Below are positions 7,273 through 63,234 of a stretch of DNA of 64,000 nt, piece by piece (the stretch's first letter is position 1; the number at the start of each line of letters is the position of its first letter). The DNA comes from Comamonadaceae bacterium (GTDB lineage: Bacteria > Pseudomonadota > Gammaproteobacteria > Burkholderiales > Burkholderiaceae_C): positions 29,264 to 93,263 of the forward strand of contig CANKBG010000007.1 of assembly GCA_947479935.1 (NCBI GenBank), in the 5' to 3' direction. Below the pieces are notes generated by a model. The model made no database searches, was not told where the DNA came from, and saw only the letters and a list, made by a program, of their open reading frames with translations. The translations under genes were made by a program, and so were the position numbers.

Positions 7273-8970
7273 TTACATGCCCGCGTAATTAGGACCCCCG
7301 CCGCCTTCTGGTGTGACCCAGACAATGTTTTGGGTGGGGTCTTTGATGTCACAGGTTTTGCAATGCACGCAATTTTGGGCGTTGATTTGCAATCGATCGG
7401 ATTGGTCTTCGTTTTTCACATATTCGTACACGCCAGCAGGGCAGTAGCGCGCTTCGGGCCCAGCAAATTTGGCCAAATTCACACCCACAGGAACACTGGC
7501 ATCCTTCAAGGTGAGGTGAGCGGGTTGGTTTTCTTCATGGTTGGTGTTGCTGATGAACACGCTGGACAAGCGGTCAAAAGTGAGCTTGCCATCTGGCTTG
7601 GGATATTGAATAGGCGTGCACTCAGCCGCAGGCTTTAAATAAGTGTGGTCGGCCGCTGTTCGGCGAATGGTCCATGGCACATGGCCGCGCAACAAGAACT
7701 GCTCAACACCAGTCATGAGGGTGCCCACAGTGCGACCCTTTTTGAACCATTGCTTGAAGTTACGAGCTTTGTTCAACTCGGTGTACAACCAACTGCTTTC
7801 GAAGGCCTCGGGGTAGGCGGTGAGTTCGTCGTGTTGACGGCCCGCTTGCAATGCATCGTAAGCCGCTTCAGCCGCCAACATACCCGTTTTAATGGCGGCA
7901 TGACTGCCTTTGATGCGGCTGGCATTGAGATAGCCAGCTTCGCATCCAATGAGGGCGCCGCCAGGAAATACTGTTTTGGGCAATGACAAAATGCCGCCAG
8001 CCGTGATGGCGCGCGCACCATAAGAAATGCGTTTGGCCGGTGCAATACCTTTGGCTTCGTCGCCCTCAAAGTACCAGCGGATGTTGGGGTGAGTTTTAAA
8101 GCGTTGGAATTCTTCGAAGGGACTGAGCCATGGGTTGGTGTAGTCGAGGCCCACCACAAAACCCACCACCACTTTGTTGCCTTCCATGTGATACAGGAAA
8201 GAGCCGCCGTAGGTCATTTCATCTAAAGGCCAGCCAGCACTGTGCAAAGCCAAGCCAGCTTTGTGACGGGCAGGGTCGATTTCCCACAATTCTTTGATGC
8301 CAATGCCGTAGCTTTGAGGATCTTTGCCTTCGTCTAGCTTGAAGCGAGAAATGACTTGCTTGCCCAAGTGGCCGCGCGCACCTTCTGCAAATACGGTGTA
8401 TTTGGCGTGCAGTTCCATGCCCAGTTGAAAGTTGTCTGTGGGCTTGCCGTCTTTGCCGATACCCAGGTTGCCAGTGGCCACACCTTTGACGGCGCCATTT
8501 TCGTTGTACAAAACTTCAGCGGCTGTAAAGCCTGGAAAAATTTCAACGCCCAAAGCCTCAGCTTGTTCACCTAACCAACGCGTGAAGTTGCCTAAGCTGA
8601 TGATGTAGTTGCCATCGTTGTGAAAGCAGGGGGGCAATGAGAAGTTGGGCACGCGTGTTGCGCCCTTCTCGGTGGTCATCAAGAAAATATCTTCTGTGAC
8701 GGGTTGATTCAGTGGTGCACCCATTGCTTTCCAATTTGGAAAGAGCTCAGTCAAAGCAATAGGATCCATGATGGCGCCAGACAAAATGTGTGCGCCAGGT
8801 TCTGAGCCTTTTTCCAAAACCACCACAGAAACGTCATTGCCTTTTTCTTGAGCCAACTGCTTCAAGCGAATGGCCGCGGACAAACCTGCAGGACCCCCGC
8901 CCACCACGACCACGTCGTATTCCATGGATTCACGGGGGCCGTGTGCGTTCAAAATCTCTTCGGGTGTCAT
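7273..8970 (-). CDS. electron-transfer flavoprotein:ubiquinone oxidoreductase
   Basis: About 565 residues, the usual length of ETF-QO. The FAD-binding Rossmann motif VVVVGGGPAGLSAAIRL is at the N terminus. The C-terminal 4Fe-4S cluster is supplied by YCPAGVYEY and NCVHCKTCDIKDPTQNIVW. The membrane-associated enzyme passes electrons from ETF (acyl-CoA and other dehydrogenases) to ubiquinone. The track uses GTG 8982; ATG 8970 gives MTPEEILNAHGPRESMEYD, which fits homologues better, but no strong ribosome site decides between them. Monocistronic in appearance. Confidence 0.95.
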   Translation of the reverse strand: MTPEEILNAHGPRESMEYDVVVVGGGPAGLSAAIRLKQLAQEKGNDVSVVVLEKGSEPGAHILSGAIMDPIALTELFPNWKAMGAPLNQPVTEDIFLMTTEKGATRVPNFSLPPCFHNDGNYIISLGNFTRWLGEQAEALGVEIFPGFTAAEVLYNENGAVKGVATGNLGIGKDGKPTDNFQLGMELHAKYTVFAEGARGHLGKQVISRFKLDEGKDPQSYGIGIKELWEIDPARHKAGLALHSAGWPLDEMTYGGSFLYHMEGNKVVVGFVVGLDYTNPWLSPFEEFQRFKTHPNIRWYFEGDEAKGIAPAKRISYGARAITAGGILSLPKTVFPGGALIGCEAGYLNASRIKGSHAAIKTGMLAAEAAYDALQAGRQHDELTAYPEAFESSWLYTELNKARNFKQWFKKGRTVGTLMTGVEQFLLRGHVPWTIRRTAADHTYLKPAAECTPIQYPKPDGKLTFDRLSSVFISNTNHEENQPAHLTLKDASVPVGVNLAKFAGPEARYCPAGVYEYVKNEDQSDRLQINAQNCVHCKTCDIKDPTQNIVWVTPEGGGGPNYAGM

Positions 8971-9112
8971 TGGGAGACTCACATTAAGTTAGGGGTCGAA
9001 TGGCCAAATGTCGGCAGGGTGACTCATTTTAAACTCGGAACAGGCAGAATCTACTTACAAGCAGGTGGTGAATTCACATCCATTCTTTGCTATAAATCAG
9101 AGACAAAGTCAT

Positions 9113-9535
9113 ATGAAATTTGAAATACCTGAAATCAAGAAAAAAGTTAACGAAATGATTATCCCCATTCGCTGGGGCGACATGGATGCCATGAAGCATG
9201 TGAATAACACCGTTTATTTTCGATATTTAGAAACGGTGCGCATCGATTATTTTCAATCAATTGGCTGCGAACCTAATCCGCAAGGTCAAGGGCCGGTCAT
9301 CGTCAATGCGTTCTGTAATTTTTACAAACAACTGGAATACCCTGGCAATGTGTTGGCCAAAATGTATGTGAGCGACCCCGCCCGTACTACTTTTGAAAGC
9401 TGGTGCACCTTGGAGTTGGTGAATGAGCCAGGTGTGATTTACGCGGCCGGCGGTGCTACCACCATTTGGGTTGATTTCCCACTTCAAAAAGCAGTGTCGC
9501 TGCCCGATCGAATTAGAGCGATGGTCACACCCTGA
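9113..9535 (+). CDS. acyl-CoA thioesterase, 4HBT hotdog fold
   Basis: 140 residues from ATG 9113. The hotdog active-site region is RWGDMDAMKHVNNTVYFRYLETVR, with the catalytic-type aspartate and the helix HVNNTVY of the YbgC/4-hydroxybenzoyl-CoA thioesterase group. It should hydrolyse an acyl-CoA thioester in the cytoplasm; the acyl group is not predictable. The track start at 9065 adds 16 residues with no family resemblance. It is convergent with the next gene and divergent from ETF-QO. Confidence 0.85.
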   Translation: MKFEIPEIKKKVNEMIIPIRWGDMDAMKHVNNTVYFRYLETVRIDYFQSIGCEPNPQGQGPVIVNAFCNFYKQLEYPGNVLAKMYVSDPARTTFESWCTLELVNEPGVIYAAGGATTIWVDFPLQKAVSLPDRIRAMVTP

Positions 9536-9559
9536 ATGATTTGAAATGAGTTGATCCCA

Positions 9560-10174
9560 TTACTTTTGCTTGGGTACTCTGCCCATTAAATAAAACTCCG
9601 GGTTGGGCATCATGCCGCTGAAACTGGCCATTCGGTTGGACAGTCCAAAGAACGCCGTAATGGCCGCAATGTCCCAAATGTCTTCATCGTCAAAGCCATG
9701 CGCATGCAGATGCGCAAAGTCGGCATCCTCAATTTGGTCGCTGTGCAAACAAACTTTCATGGCGAAATCGAGCATGGCGCGTTGCTTGTCTGAAATGTCT
9801 GCCTTGCGGTAGTTCACTGCTACCTGATCAGCCACCAAGGGTTTCTTTTCGTAAATTCTCAAAATAGCGCCATGCGCCACAACACAGTACAAACAGTTGT
9901 TGGCAGCACTGGTTGTGGTCACAATCATTTCCCGATCGCCTTTGGTGAGGTGGCTGGTGCGGCCCACCGATTCAGGCACCATCAGGGCATCGTGATAGGC
10001 AAAAAAAGCACGCCATTCGGCCGGTCTTCGCGCAAAAGCCAAAAACACTTGCGGTACAAACCCTGCCTTTTCTTGGACTTCCAAAATTTTGGCACGGATG
10101 TCTTCGGGCACATCTTTCAGCTCTGGCACAGGATACCGCTGTGTTTTTCCGCTATTTGAGGAGGGGCCGGTCAT
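9560..10174 (-). CDS. AhpD-like / carboxymuconolactone decarboxylase family peroxidase-related protein
   Basis: About 204 residues. The AhpD-type redox motif is NNCLYCVVAHGAILR, with CXXC and the downstream histidine, followed by the all-helical segment VNYRKADISDKQRAMLDFAMKVC. Such proteins are thought to reduce peroxides or act as thiol oxidoreductases; the substrate is unknown. ATG 10174 is chosen over the track start at 10207 because AAGGAAA lies at proper distance before it. It is divergent from the CoA-transferase genes. Confidence 0.8.
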   Translation of the reverse strand: MTGPSSNSGKTQRYPVPELKDVPEDIRAKILEVQEKAGFVPQVFLAFARRPAEWRAFFAYHDALMVPESVGRTSHLTKGDREMIVTTTSAANNCLYCVVAHGAILRIYEKKPLVADQVAVNYRKADISDKQRAMLDFAMKVCLHSDQIEDADFAHLHAHGFDDEDIWDIAAITAFFGLSNRMASFSGMMPNPEFYLMGRVPKQK

Positions 10175-52745: not shown

Positions 52746-52838
52746 GGAATCGTGACCGAGTGGCCGAAGGTGCTCCCCTGCTAAGGGAGTATAGGGTGTA
52801 GAGCCTTATCGAGAGTTCGAATCTCTCCGATTCCGCCA
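52746..52838 (+). tRNA. tRNA-Ser(GCU)
   Basis: The acceptor GGAATCG pairs with CGATTCC and an encoded GCCA end follows. The anticodon stem-loop CTCCCCTGCTAAGGGAG gives anticodon GCT. A long variable arm (class II tRNA) and the T loop GAGAGTTCGAATCTCTC are present. It stands exactly at the border between core genes and the accessory island, a common integration site; no second copy of its 3' end was found in the window. Confidence 0.97.
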
Positions 52839-53263: not shown

Positions 53264-54613
53264 ATGACATCCGAAAAAGATGACCTTGAACTCATCAACA
53301 AACTTTTGGAAATTTACGACCAAAAGTACTTGGGTGAATTTTTGAATCAGGTCTCGCCAGGCCAGTGGTGCCGCGAAACGATAAACCGCTGGGTAAAGGG
53401 AAAAGCTTCTCCAAGGTTAAGTCACCGGGAGTTTGAAGCGTTGCAAGAACTTTTCCCAAAGCCCCCCTTGAGCCATCCAAACTATGATTTTGATTTTGTA
53501 GATTTGTTTGCTGGAATTGGCGGCATCAGACGGGGTTTTGAGCTGGCTGGTGGCCGTTGCGTTTTCACAAGTGAATGGAATAAATATGCAATCAAAACAT
53601 ACAAGGCCAATCACTACTCTGACCCAGATAAACATACATTCAATGAAGATATCAGGGCAGTGACACTCAGCGATAAGGATGACGTATCTGAAGCGGTTGT
53701 TGTTAAAAACATTAATTCACTCATTCCTGATCATGATGTTTTACTTGCAGGATTCCCATGTCAGCCATTCTCAATAGCGGGTGTATCCAAGAAAAACTCA
53801 TTGGGTAAGGCTCACGGTTTCGAATGTAAGACCCAAGGCACGCTGTTCTTTGATGTCGCAAAGATTATTGAAGTTAAGAGACCCGCAGCTTTTTTATTAG
53901 AAAACGTAAAGAATCTGAAAAGCCACGACAAGGGGAAAACATTTAAAGTAATTATGGAAACTTTAGACGAGCTTGGTTATTGGGTCGCCGATGTTGACTC
54001 TGATTCAAAAGCTGATCCAAAGGTCATTGATGCGCAAAATTTTGTGCCACAACATAGAGAACGCATCGCACTAGTTGGATTTAGAAAAGATCTCAATGTA
54101 CATGACGGATTTTCCCTGAAGGAAATAAGCAAGTTTTATCCGAAGGTTAAGCCGAAGTTAGGTGATATCTTAGATGCTGATTTTGATGAGAAATACATAC
54201 TTACACCCAGACTGTGGGAATACCTGTTTAATTATTCAATTAAGCACAAGGCCAAAGGCAATGGATTCGGGTATGGTTTGGTGGGTGAGCAAGATGTGAC
54301 TCGAACCCTCTCAGCCCGCTACTACAAGGATGGATCGGAAATCCTTATTGATCGTGGCTTTAACCCCGATAAAGATTTTTACAGCGTAAAAAATCAGAAG
54401 AACAGACCGCGCAGGCTAACCCCGCGCGAGTGCGCGAGACTGATGGGGTACGACGAGGCAGGTAAAGCAAACTTCAATATCCCTGTATCAGATATGCAGG
54501 CCTATAAACAGTTTGGAAACTCAGTGGTAGTTCCGGTTTTCGCTGCTGTAGCTAAGCTGATGAAGCCTCGGATCAAGCAAGCGATTGCAGTACGTAAAAA
54601 ACAGTCCAAATGA
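53264..54613 (+). CDS. dcm: DNA cytosine-5 methyltransferase, Dcm type
   Basis: 449 residues. C5-methylase motifs run in order: [38 protein letters not shown] (catalytic C166), [32 protein letters not shown], and [17 protein letters not shown] and [17 protein letters not shown]. Overall it follows remembered E. coli Dcm closely, including the N-terminal helical region (LLEIYD...LNQV...FPKPP) and the target-recognition part ([21 protein letters not shown]). CCWGG specificity is therefore likely but inferred. Overlaps vsr (ATGA). AT-richer than the core genes. Confidence 0.95.
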
Positions 54614-55074
54614 CCGATGTCCATTCACCTGCCGTTCGATCGAAGAACATGCAGGCGATTCGTTCAAAGAACACCCGTCCAGAAATCACTGTCCGGTCTC
54701 TGCTGCATGCCGCAGGTTTTCGATATCGGCTTCATGTTTCTGACCTCCCGGGAAAGCCGGATCTGGTCTTTCCTAAATATCGGGCCGTAATCATGGTGAA
54801 CGGATGTTTCTGGCATGGGCATGACTGCCAGTTTTTTAAACTACCTTCAACGCGAATTGATTTTTGGAAGCAGAAAATTGAAAAAAATCGGGCTAATGAT
54901 GAGAGGTCATCACTCGCCTTGAGGTCCGCAGAGTGGAGGATTGCAATAGTGTGGGAGTGCGCGTTGCGTAAAAAGAAAGCGGATAGTTTTGAAAATGTGA
55001 CGCAAAAACTGAGTGACTGGCTTAGATCTTTAGATGCCTCCATGGAGCTGCCAAAAACAGAACCGGTTCGTTAA
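54610..55074 (+). CDS. vsr: very short patch repair endonuclease
   Basis: 154 residues. [27 protein letters not shown], the catalytic D51 in GKPDLVFP, and H69/H71/C73 in [10 protein letters not shown] correspond to the numbered active-site and zinc residues of E. coli Vsr. It nicks at T:G mismatches formed by deamination of 5-methylcytosine in the methylase target. It overlaps dcm by 4 bases and is convergent with the restriction operon, 50 bp away. Confidence 0.97.
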
Positions 55075-55124
55075 AACGGCTGCAAATAGTCTTTATATTT
55101 TTATTGTATTGAAAGACACAAAGT

Positions 55125-55979
55125 TCAATCTAAATCGATTTTTTTAGAATTTACTAGTTGAGCCTTAAGCTCTTCAACTGAGAGTGGCGGATTTTTTCTA
55201 TGCATCATTGCGTGGCAATTACCGCACACGGGTACAAGATCGGTAACCGGGTCAACTCGATACGCTCCCCCCATGGAGGAAACGGGAACTCTGTGGTGAA
55301 CCTCAATGTAATCTTGACCTATTTGCCCATAGAAGGATCCAAAATCAAAACTGCAAACTTGGCAGGTTGGACCGTAATGTGAAATGCAGGCCGCCCGGTT
55401 TGCCGGACTTCGTTCGTATTTGTTGACAACAATTTGAATTTTCGCGCCCTCTGGCAGACCTGCTTCGAACCCCTGCATTACTTCGGTAACGTCTTCCACC
55501 TGGAGAAGTGAAAGCACTAGCCCAAAGCAAGTTGATGCAGTTTCTAAAGCGAGACTTTGATATTGTTCTTGCGAGGGCTTGCTGCTACCTAACCGCTTGT
55601 CACAGTCAAGCTCAAGTTTGGTCCAGTCTCCTCGAGGCAAGTCCCCGGGAGAGTCAATATGATTCCCGTTCACACTGATCGAAACTCGAAATCCATCGGC
55701 TACAGCTTTCTGCGCCAAAGTTGAAAATGTTGTCTTTGCTTCCTCATCCGCTTCTGCCATATGGCGCAGCAGACTTCTTGTGAAGGCATCAGCTTTGAAA
55801 CTGGCTTCTATCAGACGAGGCGTTCTTGCAAGAACGATGCCGAAACCATTTGGGTATTCAAGGTCGATGGGGCGAAGTACAACAAATGTTCCACCATCTA
55901 TTTCCTCGCTGCCACCTGAAACACCAAGGCCAAAACGCGTCTGAATTTTTTCAGCCAGTTCGCCCGCGTCTAGCATAGT
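55125..55979 (-). CDS. HNH endonuclease, McrA-like C-terminal domain
   Basis: About 284 residues. The C-terminal nuclease is complete: two zinc-type cysteine pairs (TCQVCSFDFG and VCGNCHAMMH) around YIEVHHRVPVSS and DLVPVCGNCHAMMHRKNP. The ~200-residue N-terminal part (FVVLRPIDLEYPNGFGIVLARTPRLIEASF) I do not recognise; it may bind partners or DNA. The start meets the preceding ATPase stop (TAATG; start near 55982). Last gene of the minus-strand operon, so it is probably the nuclease subunit of the restriction system. Confidence 0.88.
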   Translation of the reverse strand, partial: TMLDAGELAEKIQTRFGLGVSGGSEEIDGGTFVVLRPIDLEYPNGFGIVLARTPRLIEASFKADAFTRSLLRHMAEADEEAKTTFSTLAQKAVADGFRVSISVNGNHIDSPGDLPRGDWTKLELDCDKRLGSSKPSQEQYQSLALETASTCFGLVLSLLQVEDVTEVMQGFEAGLPEGAKIQIVVNKYERSPANRAACISHYGPTCQVCSFDFGSFYGQIGQDYIEVHHRVPVSSMGGAYRVDPVTDLVPVCGNCHAMMHRKNPPLSVEELKAQLVNSKKIDLD

Positions 55980-55981
55980 CA

Positions 55982-56650
55982 TTACAGTGCTCCAGCCTCC
56001 GGTGGATCGGGAAGATCTGCAACGAGCTTTTTAAGGTTTCTGGAGACCTCAATTCTGAATTCTTCAAAGGCATCTTTGTTTTCGTCGTTGACGTTATTTA
56101 ATTCCGCCTGAGCAAGTGCCCACAACATAAAGTCCAGAGCTTGAACGGCAACGCTGTCTCCCTTGCTCGGAAGATATGCCTTTGGATAAAAAGGGTGCCC
56201 AGTGTTTAAGGTTACACCTGCGCCACCGTTGATGAGTGCTGGTTCCCAAAGTACGCCGTTATCAAGCGTTCCGCTTGTTGAAATATGCATCAGGCTCGGT
56301 TCGTTGGTCGTAACGATCTTGAGCTTGGTGGTGGAGTGGCCGGAATTGTTTGTGATGCCTACTTCGCCACTCGCCGAATTCACGTCGGTTACTGTGGCAA
56401 CCTTCAAAGCCCCAACCTTTTGATGAATCGCATTTCCTGAGGCTGTATGCAACAGCACAGCGGAGCCAGTGATCGCACCAGCAGCCCCTTTTCTGTACCT
56501 CGTCTCCGCCTCACGGCGGGGGGCTGCGAGAAAAGTGTCCCGCAACCATTCGTATAGTTGTTCATTTAGCAGGATGCGCGACTTCTTGATATCTACCTGA
56601 AACGCATCATCGAGCTTGTGGTCGAATGACAACTCGACGCGAAGCAGCGA
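55982..56650 (-). CDS. GHKL ATPase, C-terminal part (out of frame with N-terminal part)
   Basis: The track shows an independent 216-residue ORF from TTG 56632, but its frame continues upstream as SLLRVELSFDHKLDDAF without a start, directly continuing the ATPase N-terminal ORF. As a stand-alone gene it has no ribosome site. The region is the transducer-like and C-terminal part of a MORC/MutL-type ATPase (FDHKLDDAFQVDIKKSRILL). It ends at the HNH start (TAATG). I regard it as the second half of one broken gene. Confidence 0.8.
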   Translation of the reverse strand, partial: SLLRVELSFDHKLDDAFQVDIKKSRILLNEQLYEWLRDTFLAAPRREAETRYRKGAAGAITGSAVLLHTASGNAIHQKVGALKVATVTDVNSASGEVGITNNSGHSTTKLKIVTTNEPSLMHISTSGTLDNGVLWEPALINGGAGVTLNTGHPFYPKAYLPSKGDSVAVQALDFMLWALAQAELNNVNDENKDAFEEFRIEVSRNLKKLVADLPDPPEAGAL

Positions 56651-57585
56651 AAGTGCGGTTCCTGTTTGTACATCCCCAACCAGTCCGGGCCATGAATAAG
56701 GCGGTTTTCACGGTAAACGTAAACACCTTGGCGTTCATTGGAAATTTTGGCTGCATTCCGGTTTTCAGTGGAAGAGAACTCTTCTTTTCTTGGAAGAATA
56801 AATGCACGAATAGAAAACGTGGCACTTTGTCCGTTGGGTAGCTGAACCGGAATGGTTTTGTCCACCGCCGGAGCACTCACCTCCGCGATACAGAAAGGAT
56901 CCCACGCACTGACAGGTGCGCCATTTAGCTTGATAGTCAGTGTCCTTGACCGAGCATCAGTGGGGTCTAGAAATCGTTGGTACACCGTAGCAATATGTTC
57001 CCTCAGGGAATCTTCCTGGCGTTTGAGAGCGTTTTTCAAGGGCTTGCCATCAGGTCTTGTGTAATCAGAAAGCAACCGGTCTACTTTTTCCCAAATAACA
57101 ACCGTTCCTGATTTCTCCTGTGCACTTTCATTTAGCAATTGAACTTCGTGAGGTGCTGCAGATGCCAGTTCGAGTCCCCAACTATTTGACTGGCCCAAAA
57201 AATCAAGGTCCCATGCAGCGCGCAGAGCAGCAGACTGTCCATCAGGACGTGAAACCAATGCTAGACGCTTGCAAAAAGCGGTTGACGCGGTTTTAAGGCC
57301 CAAACCGAATTTACCTAAACTGGCTGCATCCGCACGTCTCTTGGATCCGTATTTCATCGCGTTGATGAGACCATCTCTGTCCATGCCGCAACCATCATCT
57401 GCGACTGAAACTGAAATATTTCCAATAAAGTCCGCGCCAAAACGGACGTCCACATTGGAAGCGCCAGCTGCAATAGAGTTGTCGATAATGTCGGCAATCG
57501 CGGTATTGAATTCATATCCGGTATCACGCAGGCCTTCACTGATACGCGCTACGTCTGGTTGGACTTCAATAGTTTCAGTTGTCAT
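56593..57585 (-). CDS. GHKL (MORC/MutL-like) ATPase, N-terminal part, frameshifted
   Basis: From ATG 57585 (AAGGGG ribosome site) the Bergerat-fold motifs are clear: N box FNTAIADIIDNSIAAGASNV, G1 VADDGCGMDRDGLINAM and G2 LGKFGLGLKTASTAF. A transducer-type region with RENRLIHGPDWLGMY follows. Such ATPases clamp on DNA in MutL, MORC and some restriction systems. The reading frame breaks at ~56650 and the correct continuation is in 55982-56650. The track start 57606 is a TTG inside the upstream gene. Confidence 0.88.
   Translation of the reverse strand: MTTETIEVQPDVARISEGLRDTGYEFNTAIADIIDNSIAAGASNVDVRFGADFIGNISVSVADDGCGMDRDGLINAMKYGSKRRADAASLGKFGLGLKTASTAFCKRLALVSRPDGQSAALRAAWDLDFLGQSNSWGLELASAAPHEVQLLNESAQEKSGTVVIWEKVDRLLSDYTRPDGKPLKNALKRQEDSLREHIATVYQRFLDPTDARSRTLTIKLNGAPVSAWDPFCIAEVSAPAVDKTIPVQLPNGQSATFSIRAFILPRKEEFSSTENRNAAKISNERQGVYVYRENRLIHGPDWLGMYKQEPHFRCFASSCHSTTSSMMRFR
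56648..56653 (-). other. one-base frameshift in the GHKL ATPase gene
   Basis: Minus-strand reading ...GAA CCG CAC TTT | CGC TGC gives a stop after ~20 odd residues (FRCFASSCHSTTSS). Adding one T to the TTT run gives ...EPHF-SLLRVELSFDHKLDD, which joins both halves into a 541-residue protein. It is a real mutation, a sequencing error in a homopolymer, or recoding; no classical slippery heptamer is present. Confidence 0.85.
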
Positions 57586-57602
57586 TTTTGTTGCCCCTTG
57601 GT

Positions 57603-58028
57603 TCAAGAATTAATAATTTTCCAGCCGCCGCTGAGTACCAATACACCGTCGTCGTTGAGCTTTGCCGAAGTGCTATTTGCACGAACGTGATCGACGAAAA
57701 TTGATCCGTTTTCATCTTTTGAAAATGTGAGATCGTCACCGACTTTTGCATCGATAGCCCGTAAATACTTGGTCATGCAAGTGAGGCGGTATTCGTTTCG
57801 GGTCCCGCCGAAAAGCGCATTGTTGTAATAGATGAAGTTAAATTCCCATTTCGAGCCGTCGGCAAGTTCGCGGACCAACAAAGTCATTCTGGGGTTTTTG
57901 ATTGCAGCATTCAAATCAGGGAAAAATGACAGAATGTCTTTCGCTTTTGGTACCAGAATTCCCGCTTGATGTGCACCGTTGATGCCAATGTCATTGGCAC
58001 TCAGTTTTTTTGAAATTGTTGTCGTCAT
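57603..58028 (-). CDS. stand-alone EcoRII-N (B3-like) DNA-binding domain protein
   Basis: 141 residues. KKLSANDIGINGAHQAGILVPK and FNFIYYNNALFGGTRNEYRLT closely follow remembered blocks of the EcoRII N-terminal effector domain (LSANDTGATGGHQ...YYN-A-FG-TRNE-R), which binds CCWGG; the TRNExR segment lies in its DNA-contacting loop. In EcoRII this domain is joined to a PD-(D/E)XK nuclease; here no nuclease is attached. It overlaps the SNF2 stop (ATGA), so the two subunits are probably made together. Confidence 0.85.
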   Translation of the reverse strand: MTTTISKKLSANDIGINGAHQAGILVPKAKDILSFFPDLNAAIKNPRMTLLVRELADGSKWEFNFIYYNNALFGGTRNEYRLTCMTKYLRAIDAKVGDDLTFSKDENGSIFVDHVRANSTSAKLNDDGVLVLSGGWKIINS

Positions 58029-59932
58029 TTTTCGTTTTCCTGAAATTTTGACAGTGGTGAAATTTGTAGGGCTCTGACTATTATTGATGCATCAATTTCA
58101 CCATCGTGACCAACAACAGCCTCTGTCGCCAGGCCCCGTTTGAATTGGGCGCGATCCAGCATGACCTCTTCAACGCTGTCCGCGTAATACAGGTGGTGAA
58201 TTGTCACGGGTAGTTTTTGCTTACGACGGTATGCTCTTGCCGACGCCTGATCCGTGAGAGCCGGATTCCATTCCGGGTTGTAATGAATGACGTGGTTGGC
58301 CGCTGTAATGTTTAAGCCTGCGCCTGCCGCCTTTGGATTCAAGAACAACGCTCCAGATCCGTTGAACTCATAAAACTGATCAACAGTTGGCTGCCTCTCG
58401 GTAACAGGCACTCGTCCATCAATAAACCTGAAAAATCCGGCAGGCCAACGCTGAGGGATGTCTCGCATGAACAGATCGGCCATTCCCTGGTAGGTTGTAA
58501 ACACAAGAGCTTTTTGGTTGGACTCAAAAATCTCTGTGAGGAGTTCTATAAGTCGAATGTACTTGTCTACATCAAGGGATGGATTGCCTAGCGCCTTACT
58601 GACCAGACTTGGATGTGTGCAAAACATTCGCAGTCGCCCGGTCGCAACCATGCCTGCAGCAGGTCCGTATTCAGCCAACGTACTCAGTCGTAGCGATTCA
58701 TAGGCATCAGCAAGTGAAGGACTCATCGTAATTGCCTGAGGCACTTCGATCTTCTCAGGCAGATCCTTTGCAACGTCCCTGACTTTTCGCCTTAAAAGAA
58801 TTGGTGAAACAATCGGACTTAGCCGACTTGCGTCATTCAGATCATCAGTGAAACTTGCCCGGAACTCGCTCACCGATCCGAGCAATCCTGGAAGCGCAAA
58901 ATCTGCAAGGGACCAAAGATCGTCAAGTCGGTTTTCAACAGGGGTCCCCGTCACAGCTAAAGAGACTCGGCGGGGAAGTCTCTTGACAGCTTTTGTTCTT
59001 TGCGCATCCGGATTTTTTATCGCCTGTGCCTCATCAAGCACCAATAAGTTCCATTCGACTGATCCCAGCAGAGGCTCATCCCGAATTGCTGTATCAAACG
59101 AAGTCACTACAACGTCAAACGGCGTCAGTCGCTCTGCAATACCGGCTCTTCCCGGTCCTGCATGAACGTGTACGCTGAGTGAGGGGGCGAACTGTGCAAT
59201 TTCACGCCTCCAGTTTTCAACGATAGTAGCTGGCGCAACTACCAGTGAAGGCGTACAGCCCCGGTTTGTTTCAGATAGTAGCAATGCGATGACTTGCAGT
59301 GTTTTTCCAAGTCCCATTTCATCGGCAAGAATGCAGCCAATCTCTTGCTGAGCAATCACTTGCAAAAAACCGACGCCGTCAACTTGGTACGGGTAAAGCT
59401 GGGCATTAAGGCCTTGAATCTCACCGATCCCGCCACCTGCAGCAGATGCAACATCGGAAGCAATAACTACAGATTCATCAATTAGTTTTGCAGGTGCATC
59501 TTTTGTACTTCGTAACTCGATTAATTTGCCGAATGAAAGCGAGCCCCCCTCAACCACACCACGGGCAGTTAACCAGTCTTTTGCAGATTGGATTGCATCT
59601 GTACTAACGGGGTACCATTTGCTACCAATAATTATTTGATCGTAGCCAACGGGCAAATCGCAGTACTCATTGTCTGTCCAGATACCAACATTGACAATGA
59701 TCGAACTGGGAGTGACGTTGCTAATTCTGATGGCTGGTTCTGCCGGAAACCGAGAAAAAATCAAATCTGGGACCACAGATGTCAAAGGTCGATCAAGTTG
59801 CTGCCCGTGAAATTCTTTTGTGTCGGAGAAAATAGCTGAGTAAACGTCTAACGCACTTGGGAAAACGGTCGCACCCATGTGATCTTTTATTGAGATCCGA
59901 TCGCCTTCCAAAAACCAATGCGCCTTATTCAT
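58025..59932 (-). CDS. SNF2-family DNA translocase/helicase
   Basis: 635 residues. The first ~170 residues are unrecognised. Then come Walker A CILADEMGLGKTLQVIALLL, motif Ia VVAPATIVENWRREI, DEAQ box LLVLDEAQAIKN, motif III LAVTGTPVENRLDDLW, and motifs V-VI LNPKAAGAGLNITAANHVIHY and DQASARAYRRKQ. SWI2/SNF2 ATPases move along duplex DNA without unwinding it. It begins 2 bp after the WYL gene and overlaps the EcoRII-N gene, so it is the motor of this system. Confidence 0.95.
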   Translation of the reverse strand: MNKAHWFLEGDRISIKDHMGATVFPSALDVYSAIFSDTKEFHGQQLDRPLTSVVPDLIFSRFPAEPAIRISNVTPSSIIVNVGIWTDNEYCDLPVGYDQIIIGSKWYPVSTDAIQSAKDWLTARGVVEGGSLSFGKLIELRSTKDAPAKLIDESVVIASDVASAAGGGIGEIQGLNAQLYPYQVDGVGFLQVIAQQEIGCILADEMGLGKTLQVIALLLSETNRGCTPSLVVAPATIVENWRREIAQFAPSLSVHVHAGPGRAGIAERLTPFDVVVTSFDTAIRDEPLLGSVEWNLLVLDEAQAIKNPDAQRTKAVKRLPRRVSLAVTGTPVENRLDDLWSLADFALPGLLGSVSEFRASFTDDLNDASRLSPIVSPILLRRKVRDVAKDLPEKIEVPQAITMSPSLADAYESLRLSTLAEYGPAAGMVATGRLRMFCTHPSLVSKALGNPSLDVDKYIRLIELLTEIFESNQKALVFTTYQGMADLFMRDIPQRWPAGFFRFIDGRVPVTERQPTVDQFYEFNGSGALFLNPKAAGAGLNITAANHVIHYNPEWNPALTDQASARAYRRKQKLPVTIHHLYYADSVEEVMLDRAQFKRGLATEAVVGHDGEIDASIIVRALQISPLSKFQENEK

Positions 59933-59934
59933 TT

Positions 59935-60855
59935 TCAGCCTTGCGCGGTTTGTGAAGTTGCTGTCACTGAGTTGTATCCCGGCGCAAGCGCTGCGCTCTC
60001 AACGCCATAAAGTGTTTGCGGGTTGTTCAGCCATAAATGATGCTCTTTTGGATCAAGGCTGTGTTCAGGTGAGCAATCCACTGACCATCGCCGCAGTGCA
60101 TATCCAACCAATGGAGCTCGCATGTCAAGCGCCAGCATGCCGTTGTGCATCATGAAGTCGGCCTCGATCGCCTTTGGGTGGGCAATGCCTGGGTGGGGCA
60201 CTAGCTCGATATGGACCAGTCGTGCCCACTGCACATCTGACTCAATTTGTTCTTCGACTGGGATGGGCTGCTCAATGGCCTTGGCTTTGACGATTCGTGT
60301 CAATGAAAAGTCGGCAAAGCGGCCTCGCTCACGGTCATATGCGCGCAAATGCCAACGTAGGCCAGTGTCGGCCAAGGCTAGGGGGCACAGCGTCTTTGTT
60401 GAGGCTCCAGAGGTCAAAGACAGGTAATTGACCTTGACCTGGCGTCTTCCGGCAATGGCGCGAGTGAGCGTCGCCAGTGTTTCGATTTCGGGTTTAACCA
60501 GGTCGCTGGCGCTTTCACAGGGGACAGAGCGCTTGAGCTTTTGGTCCATGTTGTCGCCAAAGCCTGCTCGGAACCAGGTGAGCACACGCTCTGCTGAGTG
60601 TTCAAACAAGGGTGTGAAGCGGTCGGTCGTTGCGTACTTGCGTTGACCGGCGTCGTAGAAGAGGTTGATTGGTGCCAGGCGACGGTAGGTGCTTAGGTCG
60701 CGTGCTGAAGCAGCAGGCTTGACCCCAAAGCGTCTCTCAATATCCGCGCGGGTTAGATCGCCACAGAAGAAAGCTTTGACTTCAATGTAGAAAAGTCGCT
60801 CTCTTTGCGTCTGCGTCAGGTCGTCAAGTGCAGCAGCGACACGTTTGTTGACCAC
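59935..60855 (-). CDS. WYL-domain transcriptional regulator, first gene of the restriction operon
   Basis: 306 residues from GTG 60855, with GGAGA ahead. An N-terminal winged-helix region (LTRADIERRFGVKPAASARDLSTYR) precedes a WYL domain (RRQVKVNYLSLTSG, GLRWHLRAYDRERGRFADFSLTRI). Proteins of this layout (BrxR, CapW) are known repressors of defence operons. As first gene in the operon, immediately before SNF2, it most likely controls this operon, perhaps through the operator-like sequence at 60907. Confidence 0.9.
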   Translation of the reverse strand: MVNKRVAAALDDLTQTQRERLFYIEVKAFFCGDLTRADIERRFGVKPAASARDLSTYRRLAPINLFYDAGQRKYATTDRFTPLFEHSAERVLTWFRAGFGDNMDQKLKRSVPCESASDLVKPEIETLATLTRAIAGRRQVKVNYLSLTSGASTKTLCPLALADTGLRWHLRAYDRERGRFADFSLTRIVKAKAIEQPIPVEEQIESDVQWARLVHIELVPHPGIAHPKAIEADFMMHNGMLALDMRAPLVGYALRRWSVDCSPEHSLDPKEHHLWLNNPQTLYGVESAALAPGYNSVTATSQTAQG

Positions 60856-61321: not shown

Positions 61322-61843
61322 ATGCAAATTGAAATCGTCATCGGCAACATCGTCCAGCAACCGGATGTCGATGCCCTAGTTAATTCGGCCAACGCAAATC
61401 TTCGCTTTGGATCAGGAGTCGCCGGTGCCATTCATACTGCCGCCGGGCCAGAACTCGAGCAGTATTGCCGTCGCCATTCACCAATTGCGCTGGGTGAAGC
61501 CGTTGTAACCCCGGGCTTTGAACTTCCAAACCCTTATGTGATTCACGCGAGGGCGGCAAGTTTCATCAATGACGATCATCCTGAGAAATACCTCGACCTT
61601 GCCGTTGCTCAGGCTCTCCGAGTAGCCAAAGAAGCAGGGATCAAATCAATGGCCATGCCCGCGATCGGAACTGGCGTTTTCAAGTTCCCACCAGAGTTGT
61701 CTGCTGAAATCATCATTAACGGCCTAGTGAGTCGAAGTGAGGACTACCCAGAGATCCATTTGGTACGGATTTGCGTTGGCACGCAAGAAATGAAGGCCGT
61801 TTTCGCTTCTACTTTGGCCGCAAAAATATCTTCTCCTGCATAG
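61322..61843 (+). CDS. macrodomain protein (ADP-ribose binding/hydrolase)
   Basis: 173 residues. Macrodomain motifs are clear: IEIVIGNIVQQPDVDALVNSANANLRFGSGVAGAIHTAAG and the phosphate loop MAMPAIGTGVFKFPPE. It would bind or hydrolyse ADP-ribose or derivatives in the cytoplasm. VNSANANLRFGSGVA is close to MacroD-type enzymes. Paired with the repeat protein upstream; a link to ADP-ribosylation-based defence is possible but unproved. Confidence 0.92.
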   Translation: MQIEIVIGNIVQQPDVDALVNSANANLRFGSGVAGAIHTAAGPELEQYCRRHSPIALGEAVVTPGFELPNPYVIHARAASFINDDHPEKYLDLAVAQALRVAKEAGIKSMAMPAIGTGVFKFPPELSAEIIINGLVSRSEDYPEIHLVRICVGTQEMKAVFASTLAAKISSPA

Positions 61844-62333: not shown

Positions 62334-62418
62334 AAATTTCACCTACGTCCCCAAAAATCCAAGCAGAAGGCCATTCGGAAATGGTTTGCTGTTGTCGACA
62401 CAAAAGCAAAGGCACCAA

Positions 62419-63234
62419 ATGACCCTTCGGGAAATGCTTCACAAGGACTTTGGAATTGATTTTCCAATAGCTGGGGGGTGGGGCCAATCCGCTGATGACC
62501 CTATTGTGTTGACCTCGCAAGATCCTGATGAGGCAGCTCTTGTTCAATTTGAAATCGCGAGACGTATCTATGGTGTGCAGGGATGGTATTGGCGGCAAAT
62601 TGAACGAACATCCGCTGGAGTAGTTGGAGCAGATATCGAAAAATTTTCAAGTGAAGTCAAATACATTGAAGGCGACCAGATCGTCACTGAGAAAAGAAAC
62701 TTATATTTCGATTTGAGTTCAGTCATCAGTGCTGATGCTGCACGTCTAGAAAATCCATCTGTACCAGTTGGTCCACCCGCAGAGCTTAATTTTCCGAGAC
62801 AAATCGGATGGTTTCACTTTGACGGCATTACCAACAATGAACCGGAACACCCTGGGCTTGGGGTCTCGGTTGCGTACTCCGCTCCCAAAGCAAAAATGAT
62901 GGTCTACGCCTACGACAAGGGCATCTCGGATCAAATTCGCGATAGACCTGATGAATACGCATCCTTGGAGTACGCCCAAGCTATTGCAGACTTTCGGTCC
63001 GTGAATCCTGAAGCGCGACCTGCACGTGAGCATGAACAAGGTGGCGTTCGCTTAACAATTTTTGAAAACGGTGAGATCTTGTCAGTTGTACTGGTATCGC
63101 CATTTCGCGATTTTTTCTTCAAGTTACGACTGACCCTTGACGATCGCAGCGAGCAGTACATGGTCGACTGTGTCATGAGCACATTGGCAAATTTTGTGTC
63201 AATGGTCGGAACAAGCAATCAGACAAAGCATTGA
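62419..63234 (+). CDS. hypothetical protein
   Basis: 271 residues from ATG 62419 (MTLREMLHKDFGIDFPI), preferred over the track's 62386 because AAAGG lies just ahead. No signal peptide, membrane helix or motif I recognise. Features: repeated aromatic/acidic segments, and a run VGPPAELNFPRQIGWFHFDGITNNEPEHPGLGVSVAYSAP. Ends 8 bp before the next gene in the same direction, so the two may form a pair. Confidence 0.65.
   Translation: MTLREMLHKDFGIDFPIAGGWGQSADDPIVLTSQDPDEAALVQFEIARRIYGVQGWYWRQIERTSAGVVGADIEKFSSEVKYIEGDQIVTEKRNLYFDLSSVISADAARLENPSVPVGPPAELNFPRQIGWFHFDGITNNEPEHPGLGVSVAYSAPKAKMMVYAYDKGISDQIRDRPDEYASLEYAQAIADFRSVNPEARPAREHEQGGVRLTIFENGEILSVVLVSPFRDFFFKLRLTLDDRSEQYMVDCVMSTLANFVSMVGTSNQTKH

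Follow-up and report, generated by a model that had tools for sequence, protein, structure and literature searches.

A Dcm-type locus with a free EcoRII-N reader, an SNF2 motor, a MORC-type ATPase and an HNH nuclease as a likely restriction-modification system

Within a stretch of 64,000 nucleotides from a Comamonadaceae bacterium (this whole stretch is called the window in the following), we found a locus which is likely to be a Dcm-type (CCWGG) restriction-modification (R-M) system, with a restriction arm consisting of a four-protein, ATP-dependent machine directed against unmethylated CCWGG. The R-M reading is based on the co-occurrence of a C5 methylase, a matching reader, a nuclease and a motor, and on the mobile locations of such loci. 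The features of the locus are listed in Table 1.

Table 1. Features of the locus, with positions in the window
Feature	Position	Strand	Evidence
tRNA-Ser(gct), left border of the variable region with the locus	52746..52838	+	ARAGORN
Dcm-type C5 methylase, expected site CCWGG	53264..54613	+	NCBIfam NF007772, 769.6 bits (cut-off 710)
Vsr mismatch endonuclease	54610..55074	+	Pfam PF03852, 2.5e-33; TIGR00632, 157 bits (cut-off 97.85)
HNH nuclease, McrA-like HNH at residues ~207-262	55125..55982	-	PF01844, 1.1e-5
C-terminal part of the MORC-type GHKL gene, shifted frame	55982..56632	-	alignment with the C-terminal part (to residue ~531) of intact orthologues
N-terminal part of the MORC-type GHKL ATPase (GHKL and S5 domains)	56593..57606	-	HATPase_c_3, 1.7e-27
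Free EcoRII-N (B3-fold) site reader, 141 aa	57603..58028	-	PF09217, 1.6e-16
SNF2-family motor ATPase	58025..59932	-	SNF2-rel_dom, 5.2e-56; Helicase_C, 4.4e-15
WYL-domain regulator, 2 bp upstream of SNF2	59935..60855	-	PF13280, 1.3e-12

The ORF listing and the profile searches agree with the first-pass annotation in placing Dcm and Vsr on the forward strand, facing HNH, EcoRII-N, SNF2 and WYL, which are all on the reverse strand. The tight packing claimed for the latter genes was found as well: WYL and SNF2 are separated by 2 bp, SNF2 and EcoRII-N overlap by 4 bp, GHKL and HNH by 1 bp, and between EcoRII-N and GHKL there is either a gap of 17 bp or an overlap of 4 bp, depending on the choice of the start codon. 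The dcm and vsr genes overlap by 4 bp; the gap between HNH and Vsr is 50 bp. DNA similarity to six congeners stops at the 3' end of the tRNA-Ser gene or at most about 30 bp past it, and the genes downstream of this tRNA differ in most of the six. G+C content is 0.42-0.50 over much of the locus, as compared to 0.51-0.54 upstream. The loci with the module are either plasmid-borne or located at a tRNA site which is variable; a comparison with 50,697 phage records gave no match for carriage of the module. Intact orthologous modules are present, for example, in Azoarcus sp. L1K30, on the Rhizobium gallicum plasmid pRgalIE4872a and on the 19-kb Pseudomonas putida plasmid NZ_CP043577. In the window, CCWGG was observed 97 times with 122 occurrences expected, a mild deficit which decides nothing. 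Near the contig end, a 282-aa protein (62386-63234) has no match in Pfam, PADLOC or NCBIfam, and a macro-domain protein resembling ADP-ribose deacetylases (61322-61843) with no evident partner is encoded just past the WYL gene.

Further loci came from a single genome scan, from records of plasmids and from searches of genomes. Enough neighbourhood was available for 17 loci (the window, L002-L005, L007, L009, L010, L012-L018, L035 and L036), of which L013 and L014 are close relatives and not independent. Three more (L006, L008, L037) are cut by contig ends and were left out; in L008, SNF2-EcoRII-N is present with no GHKL-HNH after it. SNF2, free EcoRII-N, MORC-type GHKL and HNH occur beside Dcm in all 17 covered loci, the SNF2 gene of L002 being cut by a contig end, and this association of the module with Dcm is far from chance. 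Vsr accompanies the genes in 16 of the 17 and had no match in L018. The hosts are Pseudomonadota, a spirochaete and a planctomycete. Thus, the proposed co-occurrence of the gene set holds for four genes, but not for WYL: this gene, which had been counted as a component of the operon, gave no tblastn match in any other locus. WYL was therefore ruled out as a core component, and the conserved unit consists of SNF2, EcoRII-N, GHKL and HNH; WYL is a local neighbour and probably a local regulator. In the planctomycete locus (L010), the module is directly followed by a gene (L010:12879-15245) whose product has AIPR and GreA/GreB C-terminal domains. A few genes upstream of the module of Rhizobium sp. 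SRDI969 there is a Z1-domain gene (L014:1-669), perhaps part of a second defence system.

Two gene orders were observed. The window type is SNF2-EcoRIIN-GHKL-HNH; in L016, L017, L018 and L036, the order is GHKL-HNH-SNF2-EcoRIIN. The pairs SNF2-EcoRIIN and GHKL-HNH are kept together in both orders, which suggests two subunits, one consisting of SNF2 and the reader and the other of MORC and HNH.

The 141-aa protein proved to be a genuine free EcoRII-N domain (60.9 bits with the Pfam model, cut-off 25). No other domain was matched in this protein, in line with the proposal that the reader is a separate subunit. Its best solved relatives are EcoRII (PDB codes 1na6/3hqf, 2e-9), followed by plant B3 domains. 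Residues H20, Q21, R77, N78, E79 and R81 of the window protein correspond to H36, Q37, R94, N95, E96 and R98 of EcoRII; the equivalents of these six do not vary among the 17 free domains aligned and are mostly common to the enzymes of classical Dcm-Vsr-EcoRII loci. We take H36, R94, E96 and R98 of EcoRII (plus Q37 and N95) to be DNA-contacting residues of the effector cleft. At the positions of EcoRII Y41, K92 and K97 the window reader differs. Free EcoRII-N domains are rare: among 369 genomes of the class, a free-domain profile matched 3, and in two of these the frame was short and free; among 399 genomes of the phylum there were 12 with a match, one of which was clearly free. Most other matches are EcoRII enzymes of about 400 aa.

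The Dcm of the window shares 62% of its residues with E. coli Dcm and 63% with an M.EcoRII-like enzyme. The target-recognition stretch is common to all three and likewise to all loci aligned; Vsr is 45% identical to E. coli Vsr. Judged by this stretch and by the curated cut-off of the E. coli Dcm family, which its score exceeds, the methylase appears to be of the Dcm type with CCWGG as predicted site. With the methylase above the family cut-off and H36, R94, E96 and R98 of EcoRII kept in the reader, the idea that both are aimed at the same CCWGG-like site has stood up; both look CCWGG-specific. In the methylase tree, the long-type Dcm proteins, E. coli Dcm and the M.EcoRII-like enzyme group together in a single clade (support 100/100), but the loci encoding them (the window, L015 and L016) occupy three separate, well-supported places in the module tree. 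The methylase has therefore been exchanged, each time within the same family. This argument is drawn from supported branches; as there are three long-Dcm rows only, clustering statistics carry no weight. L018, from the same genus as the window, has a permuted module, a Dcm of another lineage and no detectable Vsr; consequently, this genus has two separately acquired versions.

In the SNF2 protein, the motor motifs DEMGLGKT, DEAQ and GAGLN are intact; its N-terminal region of about 170 aa is uncharacterised. The HNH protein has C207, C210, H229, H230, C253, C256, H257 and H261, metal-binding and catalytic residues which are invariant in 16 orthologues. Its AlphaFold2 model was usable (pLDDT 76), and searches of PDB and viral structures with this model gave no match at E ≤ 0.001 for the fold of the N-terminal domain; 2a8e, which ranked first (4.6e-3), and 3mqz (DUF1054 by its description), which ranked lower, were rejected as too weak. 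In a further Dcm-Vsr locus, the third gene (L038:7977-8915) codes for a protein in which EcoRII-N and an HNH_2 nuclease are fused. This fusion may be seen as the single-chain equivalent of the separate reader and nuclease in the module, and it supports HNH as a cutting domain acting with this reader. The earlier assignment of cutting to HNH is thus backed by the fusion, with the restriction that HNH is not the sole nuclease in about half of the sister loci.

In the mechanism we propose, Dcm would methylate CCWGG sites of the host, and Vsr would repair the T:G mismatches arising from this methylation. SNF2 and the free EcoRII-N domain would act as one unit, which finds unmethylated CCWGG and moves along the DNA; the MORC-type GHKL ATPase and HNH would act as a second unit, which closes on the DNA and cuts it. 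Restriction as such, movement powered by ATP, the closing of a clamp and cleavage by HNH are inferred, and the four-gene machine probably destroys unmarked DNA. It would replace the one-protein EcoRII enzyme and, in some sister loci, be added to it. A more far-reaching interpretation is that the EcoRII effector domain has become a detachable sensor on an SNF2 motor, which loads a MORC clamp bearing an HNH nuclease, the whole being a distinct ATP-dependent machine. We put this forward tentatively and lean somewhat against it. If this is true, prokaryotic MORC proteins would have a defined job for the first time, and the machine would be a second restriction arm which, within a single locus, relies on the same methylase as EcoRII. 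A working system would connect site reading as in EcoRII with SNF2/MORC machines of the sort which later turned into chromatin factors. E. coli K-12 methylates CCWGG, the site expected for the locus; because this site, the solved relatives of the reader and the protecting methylase are known, a comparison of dcm-plus and dcm-minus laboratory strains would be direct.

The GHKL gene is not a single open frame: its N-terminal and C-terminal parts are in different frames, and a Legionella orthologue aligns to the window gene in two frames with the junction near 56,640. In 15 of 17 relatives, the whole gene can be read in a single frame. It is also broken in L002 (L002:1198-2785) and L012 (L012:9427-11015), in both cases elsewhere in the gene; no comparable break was noticed in SNF2, EcoRII-N or HNH. 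A programmed frameshift is not favoured, since the frame is intact in most relatives and the breaks in L002 and L012 lie at other positions. Directly before and directly after the break, identity to L002 is about 77%; the break in the window is therefore recent or an assembly error. If it is real, this genome probably has no active restriction arm. The locus may accordingly be a dead remnant, in which the Dcm-Vsr pair alone still works and restriction has been silenced by the GHKL break. We consider this to be close to an even chance, and it is compatible with the other readings. It fits the junction near 56,640 and the differently placed breaks in L002 and L012, the latter having a broken EcoRII gene in addition. 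On the other hand, differences of a single base in draft assemblies may be errors, and GHKL on both sides of the break as well as all other genes are as conserved as in intact relatives (for example about 77% identity to L002 on either side of the break).

Apart from the break, the GHKL motifs DIIDN, DDGCG and GKFGLGLK and the MORC motif GVYVYRENRL are present. With the family profile, the best PDB relative is MORC2, followed by MutL. The gene carries the GHKL motifs and the S5 motif GhXhhpXXRhl by which Iyer et al. (2008) defined prokaryotic MORC proteins; in this genome, its reading frame is split in two instead of complete. The predicted model is poor (52.7), which, together with the HNH N-terminal domain lacking a confident fold match, counts among the weak points of the R-M reading. 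In L087 (G083), a lone GHKL gene (8521-10077) is 79% identical to that of the P. putida module, the final part of the match being missing. Despite this high identity and the absence of EcoRII-N, a reader swap was rejected for L087, as this locus has the GHKL gene alone, beside unrelated genes and without SNF2, HNH or Dcm nearby.

The frame breaks in three loci would also fit a costly function, as expected if the module raised an alarm leading to abortive infection: unmethylated CCWGG would be sensed on incoming DNA, and MORC-HNH would degrade DNA without sequence choice, killing or arresting the cell. As HNH and the reader are not one protein, cleavage could take place away from the site, and in L010 the adjoining AIPR gene is of an abortive-infection type. 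However, the strict link to Dcm (17 of 17) and the EcoRII-N-HNH_2 fusion fit self/non-self restriction equally well, and no feature specific to cell killing was found in the module; we regard abortive infection as unlikely.

An apparently intact EcoRII-C nuclease gene was found in six loci (L005, L007, L010, L013, L014 and L015), in three of which (L007, L013, L014) it lies between HNH and Vsr; the enzyme of L010 is a complete EcoRII (8e-44 to 1na6). L009 and L012 contain EcoRII-type remnants. The notion that HNH stands in place of a PD-(D/E)XK nuclease therefore applies to the window, which has no EcoRII-C gene, but is not general, as about half of the sister loci have an EcoRII-type nuclease. 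The latter fact and the GHKL breaks in the window, L002 and L012 are points against the R-M reading, and the module could have another role beside such a nuclease. It might, for example, be a helper of EcoRII or of Vsr repair, a MORC/MutL-like ATPase and a nuclease working at Dcm sites with no restriction arm of its own, which would suit the EcoRII-type genes in about half of the loci, the presence of Vsr in 16 of 17 and the relationship of GHKL to MutL. We consider such a role improbable: the module is kept in 9 of 17 loci without an EcoRII-C gene, the window included, and in L018 without a Vsr match, and dcm-vsr-EcoRII loci exist in which no gene of the module was seen within the short stretch examined.

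The least probable alternative, a Type IV-like system in which a McrA-like HNH protein attacks modified foreign DNA, can draw on EcoKMcrA, which among solved structures is the best relative for the HNH domain, and on mREase_IV as the only PADLOC hit, but the match to EcoKMcrA (6ghc) covers the HNH part and not the methyl-reading N-terminal domain, the reader belongs to the type of EcoRII, an enzyme which cuts unmethylated sites, and an enzyme against methylated CCWGG would destroy the host, as every covered locus makes 5-methylcytosine via Dcm.

Returning to the R-M reading, the closest precedent is computational. Iyer, Abhiman and Aravind (2008, PMC2292703) described, as a union of neighbourhoods, Group-2 operons with a prokaryotic MORC and a SWI2/SNF2 helicase, often with HNH or EcoRII-like nucleases and sometimes with a VP1/RAV (B3) DNA-binding protein, DNA cytosine methylases (DCM) and VSR. 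All these kinds of genes and the motif GhXhhpXXRhl are found in the window. By its gene content, the locus is thus a member of an operon class already predicted in 2008, in agreement with the surmise of the first-pass annotation that similar loci had been noted computationally. What is added here is that the B3-type protein is a free EcoRII-N domain with intact recognition residues, that the genes form two pairs occurring in two orders, that the methylase was exchanged repeatedly, that some loci have both arms, that an EcoRII-N-HNH_2 fusion exists, and that the frame is broken in the window. A literature search, with most subscription papers outside its reach, found no experimental study of such operons.

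With EcoRII (Type IIE, CCWGG), the locus shares the reader family (PF09217, 1na6/3hqf), a Dcm-like methylase and Vsr, which is found beside EcoRII in many classical loci; in contrast, the window has no EcoRII-C PD-(D/E)XK nuclease, its reader and its nuclease are different proteins, and there are two additional ATPases. CglI and NgoAVII (PMC4267653, PMC5737866) combine a C5 methylase and a B3-type reader with a helicase-like ATPase needed for cleavage, as the window does in terms of gene kinds; however, their nuclease is a PLD domain fused to the reader and their ATPase is of the DEAD family with Z1, whereas HNH, SNF2 and MORC in the window are each separate proteins, and neither PLD nor Z1 is among the Pfam matches of any locus protein. 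The SNF2 motor core is related to Zorya ZorD, DISARM DrmD and Dpd DpdE, with 413 bits for the ZorD profile in PADLOC, but the scores stay below the NCBIfam cut-offs (ZorD 233 of 1500, DrmD 79 of 950), and no other Zorya or DISARM genes are present. Membership in the EcoKMcrA Type IV group is contradicted by the alignment to 6ghc, which is confined to the HNH region, and by the constant presence of Dcm beside the module. The window GHKL is also related to MzaB of the MZA system (194 bits); this score compares with a cut-off of 850 for a window protein which is truncated, and the locus has neither a Z1 nor an AIPR gene. More distant GHKL relatives (L088-L098) are found in other operons, several of them near Vsr and C5-methylase genes.
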